Positions 3,291-58,702 of a DNA stretch of 64,000 nucleotides are shown piece by piece; within the stretch, counting starts at the first letter, position 1, and every line of letters starts with the position of its first letter. A program made the position numbers and the translations under genes. Under the pieces are notes generated by a model. It made no database searches. It was given only the letters and a program-made list of their open reading frames with translations, and was not told the origin of the DNA. Source of the DNA: Oceanicella actignis (lineage in GTDB: Bacteria > Pseudomonadota > Alphaproteobacteria > Rhodobacterales > Rhodobacteraceae); the NCBI RefSeq assembly GCF_008124525.1, contig NZ_VNHJ01000007.1, positions 1 to 64,000 of the forward strand, given 5' to 3'.

Positions 3291-4424
3291 TCAGGCCTGC
3301 CGCGCCGCGCGGGCGGCGGCGGCGTCAAGCGCCAGCAAGGTATCGAGCATGATCTGCGCCGGGTCAAGATTGACCGCGCGCGCCGCGCGCGCGCGCGCCG
3401 GCGCCGTCATGGCCGCCTCGGCCCAGATGCGCGCGCGCGCCTCGCCGCCGCCCAGCCGCCGATGCAGGGCCTCTTCCTCGGGCGTCGCCGCTTCGGGCGC
3501 CGCGCCCAGCGCAGCGCCGCGCGCCAGCCGCGCCAGCAGCAGCGCCAGAAGGCGCAGCGCGGCGTCGAAGCGTTCCTCGCCCGCGGGGCCGGCGCACTCG
3601 GCCGCAAGGCGCTGCATCTCGACCCGGTCCATGCCCGGCGCGCCGGCCAGGAGCCGCGCCAGGCGCCGGAACAGCGCCGGTCCGTCGGCCGCGCGCAGCC
3701 GCAGCGCCTCGCCCGCCGAGCCGGCCGCCAGCGCCGCCAGCGTCGCCGCCTCGTCCGAGGCAGGATCCAGCCCGATCGCGCGCGCCAGCGGCTCGGCCGC
3801 CAGAGGCCGCAGCGCCAAGCGGCGGCAGCGCGAGCGGATGGTGGGCAACAGCCCCGCCGGCGCGTGGCTGACCAGCAGGAACAGGCTGCGCGCGGGCGGC
3901 TCCTCGATCAGCTTGAGCAGCGCGTTGGCGGCGCTGGGGTTCAGGTCGTCGGCCGAATCCACGATCGCCGCCCGCCAGCCGCCATCGGCGGCGGTGCGGC
4001 GGAACAGCTCGGCCATGGCGCGGGCGTCCTCGACCACGATCTGCGCGCGCAGGCGCTTGCGCGCCGGGTCCCAGCCGCGGCGCAAGAGCCGCAGCCGCGG
4101 CTCGGCCAGCGCCGCGGCGCGGCGAAAGACCGGATGCGCGGGATCGAGCGCCAGGCTGTCGGGCGCCGGCCCCTCGGCGCCGCCTTCGGACCAGGCCAGC
4201 ACCGCCCGCGCGATGCGCCAGGCCAGCGTGGCCTTGCCGACGCCGCGCGGCCCCTCGAGCAGCCAGGCGTGGTGCAGACGCCCGCCGCGCCAGGCGTCCA
4301 GAAAGGCGCGCTCGGCGGCCTCCTGCCCGAACAGCGCGACCGCCTCGCGCGGGTGGGGGGCGCCCTCGACCCGGTCGGGCTCGGGCGGGGCGGCCTCGGG
4401 CTCGATCTCGGCCGGGCGCCTCAT
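3291..4424 (-). CDS. holB: DNA polymerase III delta-prime subunit
   Basis: A 377-residue AAA+ protein of the clamp-loader complex that loads the sliding clamp onto primed DNA. A Walker A loop GPRGVGKA is at residues 58-65. The ALLKLIEEPP segment is diagnostic, and TIRSRCRRL carries the sensor SRC motif. The zinc-binding cysteines seen in many delta-prime proteins are not evident, as in other alphaproteobacteria. The ATG at 4424 overlaps the tmk stop by 4 bp. The protein is rich in Ala and Arg, in keeping with the genome's composition. Confidence 0.93.
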   Translation of the reverse strand: MRRPAEIEPEAAPPEPDRVEGAPHPREAVALFGQEAAERAFLDAWRGGRLHHAWLLEGPRGVGKATLAWRIARAVLAWSEGGAEGPAPDSLALDPAHPVFRRAAALAEPRLRLLRRGWDPARKRLRAQIVVEDARAMAELFRRTAADGGWRAAIVDSADDLNPSAANALLKLIEEPPARSLFLLVSHAPAGLLPTIRSRCRRLALRPLAAEPLARAIGLDPASDEAATLAALAAGSAGEALRLRAADGPALFRRLARLLAGAPGMDRVEMQRLAAECAGPAGEERFDAALRLLALLLARLARGAALGAAPEAATPEEEALHRRLGGGEARARIWAEAAMTAPARARAARAVNLDPAQIMLDTLLALDAAAARAARQA

Positions 4425-5056: not shown

Positions 5057-6315
5057 CGCGCGCCCTCCGCGCCCTCGCCGGCGACATCCTCGGCCGCCTG
5101 GCTGAGCGCGCGCATGGCCCGGGCGAAGACAAGGCGCGCGGCGGCCTTGAAGCGCTCGGGGAAGCCGCCCTCGGGCACGGCTTCGGCCGCCACCACCGGG
5201 ACCTCGATGGGCGCCATGTCGGGGGCCTCGATCACCAGCCGCGCCACCTCCTGCCCCCTGGCCACGGGCGCCTCGAGCGGACCTTCGTAGACGATGCGCG
5301 CGCGCAGCTTGTCGCGCGCGCCCCAGGGCACGGTGGCGACCACGTCGCGCGCGACCGTCAGCGGCGCGCTGGGGCGCGCGCCCAGCCACACCTCGGCCTC
5401 GCCCAGGATCTGCCCGGCGGCGTAGAGCTTGCGGTTCACGAACTCGCGGAACGCCCATTTGACCAGGCGCTCGGCCTCGAGCGCGCGGGCCTTGGCGTCG
5501 GGCAGCCCGCCGATCATCAGGATCACGCGCCGGTCGCCGCGCCGGGCCGACCCGACCAGGCCGTAGCCGGCCTCTTCGGTGTGACCGGTCTTGAGCCCGT
5601 CGGCGCCGACATCGGCGAAGAGCAGCGGGTTGCGGTTGCGCTGGCGGATGCCTTCCCAGGTGAACTCGGTCTCGGCGAAGATGGGGTAGTATTGGGGGAA
5701 ATCCTCGATCAGCCGCTGCGCCAGGGTCACCAGATCGCGCGGGGTCATGCGCTGGCCCGGATCGGGCCATCCGGTGGCGTTGGCGAAATGCGATCCGCGC
5801 AGGCCCAGCTGCCGGGCGCGCTCGTTCATGCGCGCGGCGAAGGCCTCCTCCGAACCGGCCAGGCCCTCGGCCAGCACGACGCAGGCGTCGTTGCCCGACT
5901 GGACGATGACGCCGCGCAGAAGGTCGGCGACGCGGATCGCGTCGCCCTCGCGCGCGAACATCTTCGAGCCGCCCATGGCTGCCGCCCGCGCCGAGACGCG
6001 GAAGCGATCCTCCATGGACAGGCGGCCCTCGGCCAGCGCCTCGAAGACCATGTAGACGGTCATCAGCTTGGACATCGAGGCGGGCGGGATCGGAACGTCG
6101 GGGTCGCGCGCCAGAAGCTCGGCCCCCGTGCCCGCGTCGATCACCAGCGCGGCCCGCGCGGCGGTGTCGAGCGCGCGCGAGGGCGCGGCGGAGCCAAGCG
6201 CCAGCGCGGCGAACAGGGCCGCGGACAGGGTTGCGCGCAGGCTGGGGCGCAAGATGGGGCGCAGGCTGGGACGCGGCGGGCGGGAGGCGGCGGAGCGCGG
6301 CGTGGCGTCAGGCAT
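5053..6315 (-). CDS. dacC: D-alanyl-D-alanine carboxypeptidase (PBP5/6 type)
   Basis: A 420-residue periplasmic enzyme that trims the terminal D-Ala from peptidoglycan stem peptides. An Arg-rich N terminus leads to a hydrophobic signal segment at about residues 28-49 (cleavage near SRA-LD). The penicillin-binding motifs are all present: SMSK with Ser80/Lys83, SGN at 140-142 and KTG at 242-244 (LKTGHTEEAG). The C-terminal beta-rich PBP5_C region spans about 300-385, followed by a helix likely to anchor it to the membrane. The symbol dacC follows usual practice, but paralogues dacA/dacC cannot be separated here. Confidence 0.93.
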   Translation of the reverse strand: MPDATPRSAASRPPRPSLRPILRPSLRATLSAALFAALALGSAAPSRALDTAARAALVIDAGTGAELLARDPDVPIPPASMSKLMTVYMVFEALAEGRLSMEDRFRVSARAAAMGGSKMFAREGDAIRVADLLRGVIVQSGNDACVVLAEGLAGSEEAFAARMNERARQLGLRGSHFANATGWPDPGQRMTPRDLVTLAQRLIEDFPQYYPIFAETEFTWEGIRQRNRNPLLFADVGADGLKTGHTEEAGYGLVGSARRGDRRVILMIGGLPDAKARALEAERLVKWAFREFVNRKLYAAGQILGEAEVWLGARPSAPLTVARDVVATVPWGARDKLRARIVYEGPLEAPVARGQEVARLVIEAPDMAPIEVPVVAAEAVPEGGFPERFKAAARLVFARAMRALSQAAEDVAGEGAEGAR

Positions 6316-6345
6316 TGCGCTGTCCTTCTCGTGCGGCGGCGCCGG

Positions 6346-7839
6346 TCATCGGCGCACGCGCATGGCGTCGGGAAAGCCCGCGGCACGGGCAAGGTCCAGG
6401 GCGTCGCGCGCGGCGCCCTCCCGGGCGAAGGGGCCGAGCAGCAGACGCACCCAGCCGCCCTCGGGCGCGCCGACGCGCACCGGCAGCCCCTGGGCGGCGA
6501 AGCGGCGCGCGGCAGCCTCGGCGTTCGCCGGGTTGCGGAAGCTGGCCACCTGAACATACGGCCGTTCCGGCGCCTCGGCCAGATCCGGCGGCACGCCCGC
6601 CTGCGCGCCCTGCGGCGCGGCGGCGCCAGCCTTGGGCGGCGGCGCGCCGCGCGCCGTCTCGGCGCCGGACGCGGGCGCGGCGCGGCCCGGCGCCACGCCC
6701 GCGGGCGCGTCGGCGCGCAAGACGGCCCCGGGCGAGGCCGAAGCCGCCGCCGGCGACGCGATGGGCGGCGAGGAGGGCGACGGGGCGGGCGACGGGGCGG
6801 GCGAAGCGGCGGGGGACCGGCGAGGCGGGGCCGCGGCGCCTGCGCCCGTTCCGACCTCGATGGGGCGGGCGGCGCCAGCTTGCGCAGCCGTGGCGGGCGC
6901 CGGCGCCTCTTGCCTTGCCGGATCCGACGGCGCAGGGGCGGCTCCGGCGAGCGCGGGCGCGGCGGCCGCATCGCCCCCCGCCGTCCCGGCGCCGGCGGCC
7001 GATGGATGCGCGGCGGGCGACGCTCCGAGGGCCGAGCGCCCCGCCCCGGCCCGCGGCGCGCCCGCCGCCTTGGGCGCCTCGGCGCCCGGCCGCGCTTCGG
7101 CGTCAGGCGGCACGCCAGGGGCCTGCGCGCGCGCCTTGGCGACATCGCCCCCGCCCGCCTCCGCCCCCTCCTCGCCGGCCGCCCCGGCGCGCGCTCCCGA
7201 CGGGGCGGGCGCGAGCGCGGTCAGGCGCACGCGCGCCACCTGCCCCGGTTCGATCCCCAGCGCGCGCGCCGCCTCGGCCGAAAGCAGGATCGAGGGGCCC
7301 GCCAGCCATCCCTCGCGCCCCAACAGCGCGCCGTCCACGAAGGCGCCGCCGTCGAGATTGCGGATGCGCCCGCGCAGCGGACCGCGGATGCCCGGATGCG
7401 CCGCCCACACGCCGCCGAGCGAGGGCGCGCCGTCCCACAGCGTCAGCCCTTCGACGTCGAAGGCGGCGGGATCCTCGATCAGGGAGGCAGGGGCCAAGGG
7501 GGCGGCCGAGGCGGGGGCTTGCGACGACTCGCGCGACGACTCGGGCGGCGTCGAGGCCGGCGCGCCGCCCTCGCGCCCGTCGGCCGGCGATGGCGCCGCC
7601 GCCCCATCGCGCGCCGTCGCAAGGCTCGCCGCGCCCACCGCCGCGTCAAGCCCCGCCGCGCCCGCCGCGCCGGGCCGCAGGTCGGGCCGCACAGGCCCTG
7701 CGCCCGGCTGCGGCGCGCAGGCGGCGGCGAGCAGCGCCGCGCACGAGGCCAGGGCGCAGCGCCCCGGCGCGGCCCGCGCGCTGGGCCGGGCGCTGGGCCG
7801 GGCTGCGCCCGGCAAGGGGCTCGGCGCGCGCGCCCTCAC
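6346..7839 (-). CDS. SPOR-domain envelope protein with RlpA-like segment
   Basis: A 497-residue probable lipoprotein; the hydrophobic start ends in LLAAACAP, an imperfect lipobox. A folded segment at about 120-215 (LWDGAPSLGGVW ... IRNLDGGAFVDGALL ... SAEAARALGI) resembles the double-psi barrel of RlpA-type proteins. It is followed by about 200 residues of Ala/Pro/Gly low complexity. The C-terminal 75 residues form a SPOR domain (YVQVASFRNPANAEAAARRF), which binds denuded septal peptidoglycan. The GTG start overlaps the alaX stop. Its place before dacC suggests a cell-wall role. The catalytic residues of RlpA transglycosylases are not evident, so it may be structural. Confidence 0.78.
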   Translation of the reverse strand: MRARAPSPLPGAARPSARPSARAAPGRCALASCAALLAAACAPQPGAGPVRPDLRPGAAGAAGLDAAVGAASLATARDGAAAPSPADGREGGAPASTPPESSRESSQAPASAAPLAPASLIEDPAAFDVEGLTLWDGAPSLGGVWAAHPGIRGPLRGRIRNLDGGAFVDGALLGREGWLAGPSILLSAEAARALGIEPGQVARVRLTALAPAPSGARAGAAGEEGAEAGGGDVAKARAQAPGVPPDAEARPGAEAPKAAGAPRAGAGRSALGASPAAHPSAAGAGTAGGDAAAAPALAGAAPAPSDPARQEAPAPATAAQAGAARPIEVGTGAGAAAPPRRSPAASPAPSPAPSPSSPPIASPAAASASPGAVLRADAPAGVAPGRAAPASGAETARGAPPPKAGAAAPQGAQAGVPPDLAEAPERPYVQVASFRNPANAEAAARRFAAQGLPVRVGAPEGGWVRLLLGPFAREGAARDALDLARAAGFPDAMRVRR

Positions 7840-8561: not shown

Positions 8562-11005
8562 GCCGCGCCCCCCTCGCCGCCGCCCGAAGGCGCCCCGTCG
8601 CCCGCCGCGCCGCGCTCGGCCAGCAGCGCGCGCAGCGCGTCCACGTTGCGCAGGTTGAGGTCGCGCTGCGGGAACGGGATCTCGATCCCCTCCTCGCGGA
8701 AGCGGCGCTCGATCTCGAAATTCATCTCGCTGCGCACGCTCACCACCTTGTTCACATCGCGCAGATAGGCGCGGATCTCGAAGTTCAGGGCGCTGTCGCC
8801 GAATCCCTGGAACACGACGAAAGGCGCAGGATAGCCCATGGTCAAGGGGTGCGCGCGCGCGATCTCGAGCAGGATCCGCTCGACCTTGCGCACGTCCGAG
8901 CCATAGGCCACCCCGACCGGCACGATCACCCGGCCGATCGTGTTGCCATGGGTCATGTTCAGCACCTGGCTCGAGATGAGCTCGGAATTGGGCACGATCA
9001 GCGTGGCGCGGTCGAAGGTCTCGATCTCGGTCGCGCGCACGGCGATCTTGCGCACCGTGCCCTGGCGCCCGCCGACCTCGATCCAGTCGCCGGTCTTGAC
9101 CGGGCGCTCGATCAGCAGGATCACCCCCGAGACGAAGTTCGACACGATGTTCTGAAGGCCGAAGCCGATGCCCACCGACAGCGCGCCGGCGACGATGGCC
9201 AGGTTCGACAGGTCGAGCCCCGTGGCCGTGATCGCCGCCAGCCCCGCCACCGTGTAGCCCACATAGCCCACGCCCGAGACCACCGCCGCCCGCGCGCCCG
9301 TGTCGAGCCGCGTGTTGGGCAGCACCGAGCCGCGCAGCACCGCCTGCACAAGCCGCGTCGCGCTGACGCCCAGCACCAGCACCACGGCGAAGGTGAGGAA
9401 GTCGAGCGGCGAGAGGCGCACGTCGCCCACCGCGAAGCCGCCGGTCAGCATCCGCCACCATTCGCTCAGATCCGAGGGCCGCGCGCCCCAGACCAGCGCC
9501 AGCAGCGGCAGCTCGACGCACAGGATGGCGAAACCCGCCAGGATCGGGATCAGGCGCAGGCCGCTGTTCTCGTCCCCGCCGACCAGGGCCTCGACCGCGT
9601 CGCGCACAAGGCGCTGCAGCACGATCCCCGCCCCGATCAGCCCCACCGTCAGGATCGGCGGCTCGGTCAGATAGCGCGAGGCCGCATAATAGCCCGCGGC
9701 CGCAAGCAGCACGCTCAGCGGCGCGCACAGCCGCAGCCCCAGCGCGCCCAGCGCCTGCGCGCGCCGCACCAGCTGGGATTGCTCGGCGACGGCCTCGTCC
9801 TCGACCGCCAGATCGTCGCCGCCGGCGCCGGCGGGGGCGGCCGGATCGGGCCGCACATGGCGCGCGAAGGCCAGCATCGCCGTCGCGCCCAGCGCCGTCA
9901 CGCCAAGGTTCCACACCGCCAGCGTGTTCGGGCTCAGCCCCAGCGCCTGGCCGCCGCGCAGGAAAAGCTGCGCGCAGAACAGCGCCAGCCCCAGCAGCAT
10001 CGTGGCGCGAAAGGCGCTGCGCGCCTCGCGGTCGTCGGCCGAGGACAGCCGCAATTCGGGATCGTAGGGCGCGTAATAGGCCAGGCCGATCGCCCGCGCG
10101 CCCAGAAGCGCGATCAGCGCCGGCGCCAGCGCGTCGGCCAGAAGCCGCCCCGTCGCCCCCGTCAAGCCGCCATGGCGCAGGATCAGCACCAGGCCCGCCG
10201 CCGCCGCGGCCGGCGCCAGCACGCGCACCGTCGCGGCGAAGACGGCGATCAGCAGGCGCCGCCCCCCGCCCGCGCCCTCGAGCATGCGGCGGAACATGGA
10301 CGAGGCGCGCGCGCGCATCGCCGCCGCCGCGCCCGCCGCGGCGATGACCAGCCCCAGCAGCAGCGGCAGGCGGTCCTCGCGCTGACGCGCGCGCACCGGG
10401 TCGCTCCAGGCCTGGCGGACCTCGGCGGCCACGCGCGCGCCGAACGCGGCCGTCTCGGCCAGGGCCGGGCGCCAGACCTCGGGCGACAGGGGCGTGGGGC
10501 CGCGCGTCAGCAGCTCGCGCGCGAAGCGCTCGCGCACGCTGGCGTCGATGCGCGCGATCAACGCGTCGGCCAGCGCGGCGGCCTGCTCGGCCTTGCGCGC
10601 GCGCCCGTCGATCTGGGCCAGCTTCTCGTTCAGCGCGGCGCGCTCGGCGGCGACCGATTCGGCCTCGGTCGCGCCCTCCTCGGGCGGCGGGCCAAGGGCC
10701 TGGAGCTGGGCGCGGACCGGATCGGCGTCGGCGCGGATCTTCTGCGCCAGAGCGCGCGCCGCAATCCGCGCCGCGTCAAGCTGCGCGCGCAGCTCCTCCA
10801 GCTCCTGGGTGGCGACCTCGGGGTTCTGCAGCAGCTTCTCGGCGCGGGCGGCCAGGGCCTCCCAACCGGCGATCTGCTCGGCCTCGACGCGCGAGGGGTC
10901 GCCCTCGCGCGCGCTGGCCGACACCGTCGCCGCCATGGGCGCGGCCAGCGCGGCGACGGCCATCAGCGCGCCGGCCAGCAGCGCGCGCAGGATCTTCAGC
11001 TTCAT
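8558..11005 (-). CDS. Mechanosensitive ion channel of the large MscS/MscK type with DUF3772
   Basis: An 815-residue inner-membrane channel. A signal peptide (residues 1-33) precedes a periplasmic helical DUF3772 region (about 60-170). About nine membrane segments follow between 220 and 600. The pore helix and MscS beta domain come next (SVGIGFGLQNIVSNFVSGVILL, given here as positions about 615-640, with VKTGDWIEVGG just after). The C-terminal alpha-beta cage reaches about residue 790. These channels open under hypo-osmotic stress. It starts 30 bases after cysK on the same strand and is probably in the same transcript. Confidence 0.9.
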   Translation of the reverse strand: MKLKILRALLAGALMAVAALAAPMAATVSASAREGDPSRVEAEQIAGWEALAARAEKLLQNPEVATQELEELRAQLDAARIAARALAQKIRADADPVRAQLQALGPPPEEGATEAESVAAERAALNEKLAQIDGRARKAEQAAALADALIARIDASVRERFARELLTRGPTPLSPEVWRPALAETAAFGARVAAEVRQAWSDPVRARQREDRLPLLLGLVIAAAGAAAAMRARASSMFRRMLEGAGGGRRLLIAVFAATVRVLAPAAAAAGLVLILRHGGLTGATGRLLADALAPALIALLGARAIGLAYYAPYDPELRLSSADDREARSAFRATMLLGLALFCAQLFLRGGQALGLSPNTLAVWNLGVTALGATAMLAFARHVRPDPAAPAGAGGDDLAVEDEAVAEQSQLVRRAQALGALGLRLCAPLSVLLAAAGYYAASRYLTEPPILTVGLIGAGIVLQRLVRDAVEALVGGDENSGLRLIPILAGFAILCVELPLLALVWGARPSDLSEWWRMLTGGFAVGDVRLSPLDFLTFAVVLVLGVSATRLVQAVLRGSVLPNTRLDTGARAAVVSGVGYVGYTVAGLAAITATGLDLSNLAIVAGALSVGIGFGLQNIVSNFVSGVILLIERPVKTGDWIEVGGRQGTVRKIAVRATEIETFDRATLIVPNSELISSQVLNMTHGNTIGRVIVPVGVAYGSDVRKVERILLEIARAHPLTMGYPAPFVVFQGFGDSALNFEIRAYLRDVNKVVSVRSEMNFEIERRFREEGIEIPFPQRDLNLRNVDALRALLAERGAAGDGAPSGGGEGGAA

Positions 11006-16457: not shown

Positions 16458-16880
16458 GCCGCGGCCGCCCGGTCCCTCGCCCCTTCGCGCCGCATCCGGG
16501 CGCGGAAGGGCTGGCCGCACGAACCGGCCGCGCGGCGCCGGCCGGCCGCGCGGCCCCGCGCCGGGGCGCCATGCAGGACCTTCGCCGCCGCGCGCCGGCG
16601 CCTCCGCCCGTGCGCCTCCGGGCGCCCCCGCCCATGCGCCATCCACCAGGCGCCCCCGCCATGCGCCATCCAGGCGCCCCGCCCGTGCGCCCTCCCCCGC
16701 GCCCCGTCTCCGCGCCCGGTCCCTGCGACCCATCCCTGCTCCCGATCCCTGCGCCGCGCCCCTTGCGCCCCGCCCGCCCGGCGCTTAGAACCGGGCCGGA
16801 TCGCGCCGGGCTTGACCGCCGCGCCCCGCCGCCGGCCCCGCGCCCGGCCTCGTCCGAACGCAGTTGACAGGATCCGCCCG
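16458..16880. other. Gene-free leader region before gatC
   Basis: No gene is supported here. The stretch carries the degenerate CCCGCCC/GCGCC repeats described separately at 16598-16696 and very C-rich sequence up to the gatC start. A TTGACA at 16864-16869 is too close to the gatC ATG to be its promoter. Confidence 0.5.
16598..16696. repeat. Four degenerate copies of a 23-28 bp C-rich repeat
   Basis: Four tandem blocks share the pattern GCGCCCCCGCCCATGCGCC followed by ATCCA or CTCC: 16598-16620, 16622-16649, 16650-16673 and 16674-16696. Spacing varies by a few bases. No reading frame across them is convincing. Confidence 0.6.
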
Positions 16881-38286: not shown

Positions 38287-39057
38287 TCAGCCGTCGGGCC
38301 GCGCCAGCCGCCGCTCGAGCCAGCGCACCGCCTGGCTCGCGATCAGGATCAGCGCAAGATATTCGAGCACCAGGATGGTGTAGATCTCGAGCGCCCGATA
38401 CTCGGTGGTGTTGAGCTCGTTGGCCCTGCGCGTCAGCTCCTGCGCGCCGATGACCGAGACCAGCGACGACATCTTGAGCATGTAGACGAACTGGTTGCCC
38501 AGCGCCGGCAGGATGCGCCGCAACGCCTGGGGCAGGATCACCAGCCGCATCGTCTGCCACGAGGACAGGCCGATCGAGCGCGCGGCCTCGATCTGCCCGC
38601 GCGGCACCGACTGGATGCCGGCGCGGAAGATCTCGGCCTCGAAGGCGCTGTCCGACAGCGCCAGCGCCAGCACGCCGGCCCAGAACACCCCCAGATCGGC
38701 GCCCGAGCCGAGGATCGCCGGCAAGCCGTAATAAACGTATAGCAGCAGCACCAGCACCGGCACCGAGCGCACGACCTCGACATAGACGCGGTTGACCGCC
38801 CGCCACCAGGGGCTGCGCGACAGGCCGGGCAGCGCCACCACAAGCCCCAGCGCGACCGAGATCGCCAGCGCCGTCAGCGACAGCGCCAGCGTCAGCTTCA
38901 GCCCGCCGAGCATGAACAGAAGGTTGCTGCGCCCCGAGGGCAGCAGCGGCGACACCACATACCACCCGCCGGACGCGCATCCGCCCAGCGCCAGCGCCGC
39001 CGCCAGCGCCCCGGCCACGCCCGCCGCGCGCCGCCATCCGCCTGTTCCGCCGGCCAT
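38287..39057 (-). CDS. Polar amino acid ABC transporter permease (HisM/GlnP family)
   Basis: A 256-residue inner-membrane permease with about five to six helices. LRSVPVLVLLLYVYYGLPAI-type sequence, SDSAFEAEIFRAGIQSVPRG and the EAA loop IEAARSIGLSSWQTMRLVILP are diagnostic of the HisMQ family. It is divergent from the binding protein at 39403, a plausible partner. No ATPase gene is next to it, so the ATPase is shared or distant. The chosen ATG follows a G-rich ribosome site. Frames extending further upstream run through the tandem repeats and are rejected. Confidence 0.87.
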   Translation of the reverse strand: MAGGTGGWRRAAGVAGALAAALALGGCASGGWYVVSPLLPSGRSNLLFMLGGLKLTLALSLTALAISVALGLVVALPGLSRSPWWRAVNRVYVEVVRSVPVLVLLLYVYYGLPAILGSGADLGVFWAGVLALALSDSAFEAEIFRAGIQSVPRGQIEAARSIGLSSWQTMRLVILPQALRRILPALGNQFVYMLKMSSLVSVIGAQELTRRANELNTTEYRALEIYTILVLEYLALILIASQAVRWLERRLARPDG

Positions 39058-39104
39058 GCCGTCCCGCCCCCCATGCCCGCGCGCAGCCGCACGCGCCCCA
39101 TGCC

Positions 39105-39224
39105 TGCGCGCATCCGCGCGCCCGAACTCATGCGCGCATCCGCGCAACCGAACCGGTGCGCGCATCCGCGCGACCGGAATGACGCGCGCATCCGCGCGAC
39201 CGAACTGACCCGCGCATCCGCGCG
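39105..39224. repeat. 26-bp tandem repeat array, about 4.6 copies, in the divergent promoter region
   Basis: Copies begin at 39105, 39131, 39157, 39183 and (partial) 39209, each exactly 26 bases. The shared core is GCGCGCATCCGCGC, followed by a more variable part such as GACCGAACTGA. There are no unique spacers, so this is not a CRISPR array. It lies between the permease gene and the binding-protein promoter. The regular phase (about 2.5 helical turns) is compatible with an array of protein-binding sites. Confidence 0.88.
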
Positions 39225-39325
39225 CGGGGGGCATCCTAGCGCCCGGCCCCGCCAAGGCAACCGCCGCCCCCGGCCTAGACCGCGCCGCCACGCCCGCCCG
39301 GCCGAGGCGAACGCCTCGCCCGGGG

Positions 39326-39353
39326 GCGACATCGGCGCCGCACGCGCTATGAT
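39326..39353 (+). promoter_or_regulatory. Promoter of the amino acid binding protein
   Basis: GCGACA (39326-39331) and TATGAT (39348-39353) are 16 bases apart; the -10 box matches consensus at five of six positions. The start codon lies about 45 bases downstream. Confidence 0.5.
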
Positions 39354-39402
39354 CTCCGAACGGCCCGCGCGCGGCGCGGGCGCGACAAGGACGGAGAAGC
39401 AC

Positions 39403-40197
39403 ATGAAGAACTTCATCGCCGGCGCGATCGCCGCCCTCGGGCTCGGGGCGCTGAGCCTTGCGGCCGGCCCCGCCGCGGCCCAGTCAGCGCTGCAGGACAT
39501 CCTTCAGAGCGGCAAGCTCAAGGTCGGCGTGACGGGCGACTGGAACCCCATGTCCATGCGCGACCCGGCCACCAACACCTTCCAGGGCTACGACATCGAC
39601 GTGACGCGCAAGCTGGCCGAGGATCTGGGGGTCGAGGTCGAATACGTGCCCACCGACTGGAAGACGCTGGTCAACGGCGTGACCTCGGGCAAGTATCACA
39701 TCACCGGCTCGGCCTCGATCTCGCCCGCGCGGCTCAAATCCGCCGGCTTTTCCGACAGCTATCTGACGGTGGCCATCCTGCCCTTCACCACCCGCGACAA
39801 GCTGCCGCGCTTCGCCGGCTGGGACAGCATCGACAATCCCCAGACCCGCGTCGCCACCACCCTGGGCACGACCTTCGAGCGCATGGTCAAGGACTGGTTC
39901 CCCAACGCCCAGCGCAAGACCGTCGAGGCGCCCGCCCGCGGCTATCAGGAGGTTCTGTCCGGGCGCGCCGACGTCTTCATCACCTCGAACGTCGAGGGCG
40001 CGACGCTGACGAAGAAATACCCCGATCTCGTGCAGATCCCGGTCGACAAGCCCCGCGCGCCTTCGGCCATCGCCATGCTGCTGCCGCAGGCCGATCAGGT
40101 GTGGATCAACTACGTGAACCACTGGATCCGCATCCGCAAGCTGTCGGGATTCTTCGACGAGACGGCGGCCAAGTGGGGTCTGGCGCCGCCCTCCTGA
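39403..40197 (+). CDS. Family 3 periplasmic substrate-binding protein
   Basis: A 264-residue exported binding protein. A signal peptide (1-26, ending AAAQ) is followed by LQDILQSGKLKVGVTGDWNP. FQGYDIDVTRKLAEDLGVEVE and the ligand-binding arginine loop ITGSASISPARLKSAGFS are typical of polar amino acid binding proteins. The related periplasmic cyclohexadienyl dehydratases share this fold, so an enzyme cannot be wholly ruled out. The divergent permease at 38287 makes transport more likely. The GGAG ribosome site and promoter fit the ATG at 39403. Confidence 0.87.
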   Translation: MKNFIAGAIAALGLGALSLAAGPAAAQSALQDILQSGKLKVGVTGDWNPMSMRDPATNTFQGYDIDVTRKLAEDLGVEVEYVPTDWKTLVNGVTSGKYHITGSASISPARLKSAGFSDSYLTVAILPFTTRDKLPRFAGWDSIDNPQTRVATTLGTTFERMVKDWFPNAQRKTVEAPARGYQEVLSGRADVFITSNVEGATLTKKYPDLVQIPVDKPRAPSAIAMLLPQADQVWINYVNHWIRIRKLSGFFDETAAKWGLAPPS

Positions 40198-56698: not shown

Positions 56699-57259
56699 AT
56701 GACCGACGAACCGCTCTTGCTGCTCGTCTGCGGCTCGCTGCGCAAGGAAAGCCGGAACGCCGCGCTGTTGAACGAAGCCGCGCGCCTGTTCGGCCCCGCC
56801 CGGATCGAGCGCGCCGACCTGCGCCTGCCGCTATACGACGGCGATCTCGAGGCGCAGGGGATTCCGCCCGAGGTGATGCGCCTGGTCGAGCAGTTCCGCC
56901 GCGCCGACGCGGCGGCGATCGCCACGCCCGAGTACAACAAGAACCTGTCCGGCGTGCTCAAGAACGCGCTCGACTGGATCAGCCGCGTCAAGCCGCAGCC
57001 GCTTCTGGACAAGCCGGTCGCGATCATGTCCGCCGCGGCGGGGCGCTCGGGCGGCGAGCGCAGCCAGTTCTCGCTGCGCCACTGCCTGACGCCCTTCCAG
57101 CCGCGGGTGCTGCAGGGCCCCGAAGTGCTGATCGCCAACTGCGATCAGGCGTTCGACGAGGACGGGCGCCTGAAGGATGACCAGGCGCAGGCGCTGCTGC
57201 GGCGGCTGATGAACAAGCTGCGCGCCGAGATCGCGCTGCGCGCGGCGCAAGGCTCGTGA
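56699..57259 (+). CDS. NADPH-dependent FMN reductase
   Basis: A 186-residue flavodoxin-like quinone or FMN reductase. LLLVCGSLRKESRNAALLNE is the FMN phosphate loop. TPEYNKNLSGVLKNALDWISR is the signature for this family, and IMSAAAGRSGGERSQFSLRH contacts the flavin. It is a soluble homodimer using NADPH to reduce quinones, chromate or azo compounds. The gene follows the gloB pair after 66 bases with a GAAGGAA-type ribosome site, so a detoxification cluster is a fair inference. Confidence 0.9.
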   Translation: MTDEPLLLLVCGSLRKESRNAALLNEAARLFGPARIERADLRLPLYDGDLEAQGIPPEVMRLVEQFRRADAAAIATPEYNKNLSGVLKNALDWISRVKPQPLLDKPVAIMSAAAGRSGGERSQFSLRHCLTPFQPRVLQGPEVLIANCDQAFDEDGRLKDDQAQALLRRLMNKLRAEIALRAAQGS

Positions 57260-57382
57260 CGCGCGGCCGCGCGCAGCGGGGGGCCTGAAGCGCCGCCGTC
57301 CGGGGGACCCGATGCGCCGGCGCGCGGCGCGGGCGGGCCGAAGCGCCGCCGCCGGACGCGCGCCCGACGGCGGCCGACGCGC

Positions 57383-58702
57383 CTAGCGGCGGATCTTTTC
57401 GGGCAGGATGCCCCTGGGCGCAAAGCGCAGCACCAGCAGCAGGATGAGCCCCATGAAGATCATCCGCATGTGCGGCGCGCCCTCGGACAGCGCCTGCGCC
57501 AGCGGGCTGCCCTCGGGCAGCAAGGCGCCCACGGTCTCGGCCAGCATCAACCCCGCCGGTTCGGCCTGAACCCAGACGAACCAGATCAGGAAGCCGCCCA
57601 GCACCGCGCCCCAGTTGTTGCCCGAGCCGCCCACGATCACCATCACCCAGATCAGGAATGTGTAGCGCAGCGGGTTGTAGGTTCCGGGCGTGAACTGACC
57701 GTCCAGCGTGGTCAGCATGGCGCCGGCCATGCCGATCACCGCCGAGCCCAGCACGAACACCTGCAGATGGCGCGCGGTCACGTCCTTGCCCATGGCCGCG
57801 GCCGCATGCTCGTTGTCGCGGATGGCGCGCATCATGCGCCCCCAGGGCGAGCGCAGCGCCCGCTCGGCCAGCCACAGGATCGCCAGCAGAACCGCCGCGA
57901 ACAGCCCCGCATACATCGCCTTGACCGCCAGGCCCGAGGCCTCGGCCGGGTCCAGCCCCCAGGACTGCGCCTTGGCCACGAACCAGGCGCTCTGCTGCAG
58001 CTCCAGCTCGTAAGGCACCGGGCGCGACAGGCCGGACACGTTCTTGACCCCGCGCGCCAGCCAGTCCTCGTTCTTGATGATGGCGATGATGATCTCCGAG
58101 ATGCCCAGCGTCGCGATGGCCAGATAATCCGAGCGCAGCCCCAGCGCGATCTTGCCCACCAGCCAGGCAGCCGCGGCCGCGAACAGCCCGCCCACCGGCC
58201 AGGACAGGATGATCGGCAGGCCAAGGCCGCCGATGTTGCCCGCGCTCGACGGGTCGATCGCCTCGATGGCCTCGACCGCCGGGTCGAAGAAATGCCGCGC
58301 CAGCGCATAGCCGCCCATGGCCAGGATGGCGGTCAGCGCCCCGCGCGCAAGGCCCGGCCGCATGCGCCGCCGGATGGCCGCGATCAGCGCCGCCGCCGCC
58401 AGCGCGCTGGCCGCCGCCGCGCCCAGCCCCGCGCCGCCGGCGCGCCATGCCTCGGGGCGGAAGGGCTCGGACACCAGCACCGCCGCCAGCCCGCCCAGCG
58501 CGACGAAACCCATCACGCCGGCATTGAACAGCCCCGCATAACCCCACTGGATGTTCAGCCCAAGCGCCATGATCGCCGAGATCAGGCACAGGTTGAGCAT
58601 GGCCAGGCTGACCGACCAGCTCTGCGCATAGCCCACCGCGATCAGCAGCGCCGCCATCGCCCCGAAGGCCGCAAGGCCGCGGCCAAGCCCATTGCCCGCC
58701 AT
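57383..58702 (-). CDS. livM: Branched-chain amino acid ABC transporter permease LivM
   Basis: A 439-residue permease with about ten helices. LNIQWGYAGLFNAGVMGFVALGG (residues about 48-70) and SDYLAIATLGISEIIIAII are hallmarks. RSPWGRMMRAIRDNEHAAAAMGKDV is the cytoplasmic loop that meets the ATPase, and MVIVGGSGNNWGAVLGGFL follows. It is longer than E. coli LivM because of an insert with a hydrophobic pair between 90 and 170. It is the last gene of the liv operon, one base overlapping livH. Confidence 0.92.
   Translation of the reverse strand: MAGNGLGRGLAAFGAMAALLIAVGYAQSWSVSLAMLNLCLISAIMALGLNIQWGYAGLFNAGVMGFVALGGLAAVLVSEPFRPEAWRAGGAGLGAAAASALAAAALIAAIRRRMRPGLARGALTAILAMGGYALARHFFDPAVEAIEAIDPSSAGNIGGLGLPIILSWPVGGLFAAAAAWLVGKIALGLRSDYLAIATLGISEIIIAIIKNEDWLARGVKNVSGLSRPVPYELELQQSAWFVAKAQSWGLDPAEASGLAVKAMYAGLFAAVLLAILWLAERALRSPWGRMMRAIRDNEHAAAAMGKDVTARHLQVFVLGSAVIGMAGAMLTTLDGQFTPGTYNPLRYTFLIWVMVIVGGSGNNWGAVLGGFLIWFVWVQAEPAGLMLAETVGALLPEGSPLAQALSEGAPHMRMIFMGLILLLVLRFAPRGILPEKIRR

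Follow-up and report, generated by a model that had tools for sequence, protein, structure and literature searches.

A tandem array between divergent transporter genes

We analyzed a stretch of 64,000 nucleotides (64 kb, hereafter the window) from Oceanicella actignis. In this window, a short tandem repeat lies between the genes of an ABC transporter permease and a solute-binding protein of family 3, which are transcribed divergently, as the preliminary description of the locus had stated, from starts at about 39057 (minus strand) and 39403 (plus strand). The gap that holds the array comprises 345 bp, or 330 bp according to our own gene caller. The median of 60 divergent gaps, determined with the same gene caller in our first sample, was 184 bp and is shorter than this gap. 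At this locus (38287-40197), no ATP-binding gene separates the permease gene from the divergently oriented binding-protein gene. The features of the locus are as follows:

38287-39057, minus strand: ABC transporter permease (PF00528); start set at the ATG at 39057 (home-made gene caller: 39018)
39078-39104, no strand: decayed further copy of 27 bases preceding the array, recognized by eye from the TRF row at 39065-39123
39105-39130, no strand: copy 1 of the 26-bp unit (TRF and copy alignment), core at 39106-39119
39131-39156, no strand: copy 2 (TRF and copy alignment), core at 39132-39145
39157-39182, no strand: copy 3 (TRF and copy alignment), core at 39158-39171
39183-39208, no strand: copy 4, core at 39184-39197; equals the consensus but for its first base
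39209-39224, no strand: copy 5, partial, 16 bases with one core change
39326-39353, plus strand: putative sigma-70-like promoter of the binding-protein gene, GCGACA-16-TATGAT (match to the consensus only)
39403-40197, plus strand: solute-binding protein family 3 (PF00497); start set according to the signal peptides of relatives (home-made gene caller: 39349)

At positions 39105-39224, TRF detected a 26-bp tandem array consisting of four full copies followed by a partial fifth of 16 bases (period 26, 4.6 copies, 85% matches, 0% indels, score 170). The array is real, and TRF and the alignment of the copies confirmed the coordinates, the 26-base period, the copy number, and the lack of spacers given in the preliminary description. 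A further TRF row (39065-39123, period 27, score 90) corresponds to the decayed copy in front of the array. The 14-base core of the unit reads GCGCGCATCCGCGC, and each unit carries a small inverted repeat, GCGCG-CATC-CGCGC. The four full copies show eight departures from the consensus, none of them inside the core. In the partial fifth copy, the first base of the core is C instead of G, which is the sole core change. If eight changes fall at random on a circle of 26 positions, 14 consecutive positions stay unchanged with p = 0.027, and the core was defined post hoc. Thus, the earlier claim that the core is kept while the flank varies is only weakly supported.

The array exceeds chance. Its score of 170 was the highest among the 57 TRF rows of the window, compared with a top score of 133 in 50 windows of 64 kb simulated with an order-4 Markov model. 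The codon score at the four exact cores of the array reached at best 2.6 over 132 bases, and the 26-bp period shifts the reading frame; for these reasons, the array does not look coding. At the 31 dispersed core sites with positive codon scores (see below), the values ranged from 9.8 to 64.0 over 312 bases, a length that differs from the 132 bases of the array test. The array had also been described as lying within a promoter. This was not borne out, as our promoter scan returned a single promoter-like site at 39326-39353 on the plus strand, approximately 100 bp away. With head-to-tail copies, no spacers, and an excess over chance, the array has the structure of a bacterial minisatellite, for which units of about 10-100 bp are typical.

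The core motif and the unit elsewhere in the genome

The array might represent a cooperative operator, in which a regulator would bind each inverted-repeat core and repress or activate both divergent genes. The core is indeed an inverted repeat, intact in four copies and changed by one base in the fifth. The preliminary description, which had raised this option, suggested a genome-wide search for the core. We found 36 exact occurrences, four in the array and 32 elsewhere (reversed control: 0), which is more than the 4.6 to 14.5 expected from Markov models of orders 2 to 6. However, 31 of the 32 exact cores outside the array had a positive codon score in some frame. Among these 31 sites, 27 were free of stop codons over 312 bases and four contained one stop; the negative codon score belonged to the dispersed core L033. 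For 22 of the 32 dispersed cores, the motif strand reads A-R-I-R-A. The excess over the Markov expectation is thus attributable to codon use, and the core itself probably represents mainly common codons of a GC-rich genome. A genome-wide operator motif was rejected on these grounds.

Core-like sites with up to two mismatches were counted in 464 kb on the basis of a home-made gene map. We obtained 33 sites in 50.6 kb of intergenic DNA and 265 sites in 413.4 kb of genic DNA, and core-like sites are no denser between genes than within them. In 60 controls with shuffled letters, none reached the 33 intergenic sites (mean 7.6), and the 265 coding sites compared with 45.4, so that chance was exceeded in coding DNA no less than in intergenic DNA. 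Since shuffling also destroys the alternating GC, we preferred the comparison of coding with intergenic DNA. When the unit, represented by 23 of its 26 bases, was searched genome-wide with up to three mismatches, no site was found outside the array. The preliminary description had named random scattering of the array as an argument against a regulatory role; such scattering was not observed, as the unit occurs only in the array.

The uniqueness of the unit at up to three mismatches, the coding scores of 31 of the 32 dispersed cores, and the equal density of core-like sites in genes and between them all argue against an operator array. As stated in the preliminary description, 26 bp correspond to about 2.5 helical turns (our arithmetic, with 10.5 bp per turn), and this spacing sets adjacent cores on opposite faces of the helix, which speaks against this reading as well. 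For a transcription-factor operator array, one would expect further sites between other genes or in the promoters of orthologues. No such recurrence of the unit was seen in our genome-wide search, and the array was absent from the 68 orthologous gaps tested among 86 related loci (see below). The cooperative-operator reading fails the tests run, and an operator array, which is not supported by these sequence comparisons, appears very unlikely.

Folding of the array

As single-stranded DNA, the array folded better than shuffled sequences, forming separate hairpins (z = -3.33; 0 of 200 shuffles as good). The fold of the plus-strand RNA had a z value of -1.40, and 14 of 200 shuffles were as good. 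If the array were transcribed as part of the permease leader RNA, its hairpins could act on elongation or on the stability of the mRNA. By eye, we noted a weak match to a promoter on the minus strand (TTGCCT-16-TAGGAT, 39260-39233, 8/12), from which transcription would begin at the array's edge. The promoter scan, however, gave no minus-strand site at its threshold, the fold of the minus-strand leader RNA did not surpass that of shuffles (z = -1.00; 32 of 200 as good), and an Rfam search of the array yielded no match up to an E value of 1. Thus, neither a clear fold over shuffles nor a match to a known family, the marks of a structured leader RNA, was found, and we assign such an element a very small probability.

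The preliminary description had further proposed a nucleoid-protein site. Alternating GC tracts together with hairpins might absorb supercoiling or bind an architectural protein, and the hairpin propensity of the single-stranded array (z = -3.33) is consistent with a structural function of this kind. Core-like sequence is, however, just as dense in genes, and the array is not conserved in the relatives tested. A structural or nucleoid-protein site would therefore be highly improbable. Hairpins that form while the DNA is replicated could plausibly promote slippage.

Comparison with relatives

The family comparison covered 295 genomes including that of O. actignis, which is the only one of its genus among them. 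A pair of cores at 26-bp spacing (up to one mismatch) occurred in two of the 295 genomes, namely in O. actignis and in G024, where it is an isolated pair with one mismatch. In a DNA search of 41 genomes, with at most eight candidates scored in each, no match to the array part of the query was obtained beyond the array itself.

We then compared 86 related loci, including the best 80 of 104 relatives found. In 68 of them, a divergent gene lies upstream of the binding-protein gene, which is the permease gene in 27 loci and an ATP-binding gene, situated between permease and binding protein, in 41. The other 18 loci showed neither gene within 900 bp upstream and are outside the gap comparison. None of these 68 orthologous divergent gaps carries the array, and the sole TRF row with a score of at least 50 in these gaps was an unrelated 16-bp duplication. 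Absence in relatives with the same genes had been named beforehand as speaking against a regulatory role; it was found in the relatives tested, none of which is a congener.

Given the 41 loci with an ATP-binding gene in between, we considered that the array could be the scar of a lost ATPase gene. This idea was dropped, as 27 of the 86 loci (best 80 of 104 relatives included) have the permease gene immediately divergent from the binding-protein gene and contain no array. The closest ATP-binding relative in the O. actignis genome is encoded on contig C8 (60% identity). A plasmid search gave homologues of the transporter genes among the matches listed, and literature searches gave nothing on this lineage among the matches listed.

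Other tandem arrays in the genome

In an independent sample of 400 kb, TRF found 10 arrays with a score of at least 140. Nine of them are intergenic, and their units differ. At this threshold, array density in the independent sample was 18.9 per 100 kb of intergenic DNA versus 0.3 per 100 kb of coding DNA, and extrapolation from this sample gives roughly 70 such arrays in the genome (our arithmetic). The first sample of 464 kb, which includes the window and one stretch where arrays had been seen beforehand, contained 11 arrays of this score, 10 of them intergenic. Intergenic arrays scoring at least 170 numbered six in the first sample (the studied array included) and four in the independent one. 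The coding state and gap orientation of the arrays were taken from our own simple gene caller. By eye, the units of both samples look unrelated. The array is not special in its own genome; its unit is specific to the locus and arrays of other units occur elsewhere, as is characteristic of bacterial minisatellites. Counted over all DNA and not split by coding state, arrays scoring at least 140 occurred at 2.4 per 100 kb in O. actignis. Four other genomes of the family, each sampled over 100 kb, gave 2.0, 0, 0, and 1.0; their G+C contents of 0.66-0.705 are lower than the 0.728 of O. actignis.

The window itself holds two more intergenic arrays, at 16597-16695 (period 51, with a 24-base sub-period) and at 57258-57392 (period 53). 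On contig C4, four arrays with different units lie within about 6 kb (L165, 3678-9589) at 3678-3828, 6145-6237, 6331-6457, and 9487-9589; all were detected by TRF and classed as intergenic, and they form a local minisatellite cluster. Strong overlapping tandem rows with periods of 27, 54, 81, and 108 were observed at L055 (1588-2072). Their units are of the GGCGGCGCGGGCGACGAC type and look as if they encode glycine- and aspartate-rich calcium-binding repeats.

The 23 intergenic arrays of the first sample with scores of at least 85 span periods from 11 to 116, and a special period of 26 was rejected on this basis. Among simulated rows scoring at least 70, 19 of 38 had periods of 24-30. The clustering of periods near 24-30 is therefore at least partly a detection effect. 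Sorted by gap type, eight of the 23 arrays lie in ++ gaps, six in divergent gaps, eight in convergent gaps, and one in a -- gap. According to gap length, 4.3 arrays would be expected in convergent gaps (p = 0.051), where no promoter is expected, and 7.2 in divergent gaps. The arrays of this genome do not favor promoters. The occurrence of arrays with other units in many gaps, convergent ones too, further weakens the operator-array and nucleoid-protein options.

A variable-number repeat had been proposed as well, and the array fits this option in kind, as it is a minisatellite. Gain or loss of 26-bp units might shift the spacing of upstream sites to the promoter or promoters, or the length of a leader, so that the transporter level would vary between cells or strains. 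The position between divergent genes is compatible with such tuning, and variable-copy tandem repeats in promoters are described for M. tuberculosis (PMC12817950). There, the repeats of dop, lpdA, and cysG adjoin promoters and have measured copy-number variation (PMC12817950). Our array is likewise a tandem repeat located upstream of genes and may affect their expression; measured variation and promoter adjacency set the M. tuberculosis repeats apart from it. The promoter regions of nadA (PMC2791445) and sabA (PMC4081817) contain simple sequence repeats whose length can change expression. A length-based effect is conceivable for the array too, but in contrast to these simple sequence repeats it has a 26-bp unit and no known regulator. 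Divergent gaps are, however, not favored by the arrays of the genome (6 of 23 versus 7.2 expected), and the array lies some 100 bp away from the sole promoter-like site. We consider expression tuning by this repeat improbable.

Discussion

With a probability of roughly 0.8, we interpret the array as a lineage-specific, GC-rich minisatellite in intergenic DNA that arose by slippage or unequal recombination, is one of many in the genome, and has no dedicated function. Because the genome carries many unrelated intergenic repeats of like kind, the array is in all likelihood a commonplace side product of DNA replication and no special switch. A short chance duplication would have arisen between the two transporter genes and then been amplified in tandem, through slippage during replication or through unequal recombination. 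The inverted repeat GCGCG-CATC-CGCGC may have favored this multiplication; single-stranded copies can fold into hairpins. Afterward, the copies would have drifted apart. The structure of the array, its position outside coding sequence, its excess over chance, the uniqueness of the unit, its absence from the relatives compared, and the abundance of other arrays are observations; the origin by slippage and the absence of a function are inferences. The array may incidentally influence expression of the transporter, and an effect of this type would be nothing unusual.

Intergenic minisatellites, or VNTR loci, are known from other bacteria, the MIRU loci of M. tuberculosis being an example. Like the array, such loci consist of spacer-free tandem units of tens of bases in gaps between genes, with many loci and different units per genome. 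Unlike them, the unit studied here has a sequence found only in its own genome.

Some observations do not fall easily into line with a minisatellite without dedicated function. All eight differences lie outside the core (p = 0.027, core defined post hoc), a pattern that constraint on the core might explain. The plus-strand hairpin of the unit (z = -1.9) is the second strongest on that strand among 20 intergenic arrays, and a score of 170 is high even for this genome. One might imagine that the array works as a rheostat, its copy number tuning the divergent transporter pair via a selected hairpin core, and that it belongs to several dozen gap arrays varying expression genome-wide in this GC-rich lineage. 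We regard this as quite improbable and favor the minisatellite.

For the reading of other loci, we conclude that a phased array in a divergent gap of a minisatellite-rich, GC-rich genome is, alone, no evidence of an operator, and that a recurrent GC-rich core may simply correspond to common codons. Strain typing could draw on the numerous arrays between the genes of this lineage.
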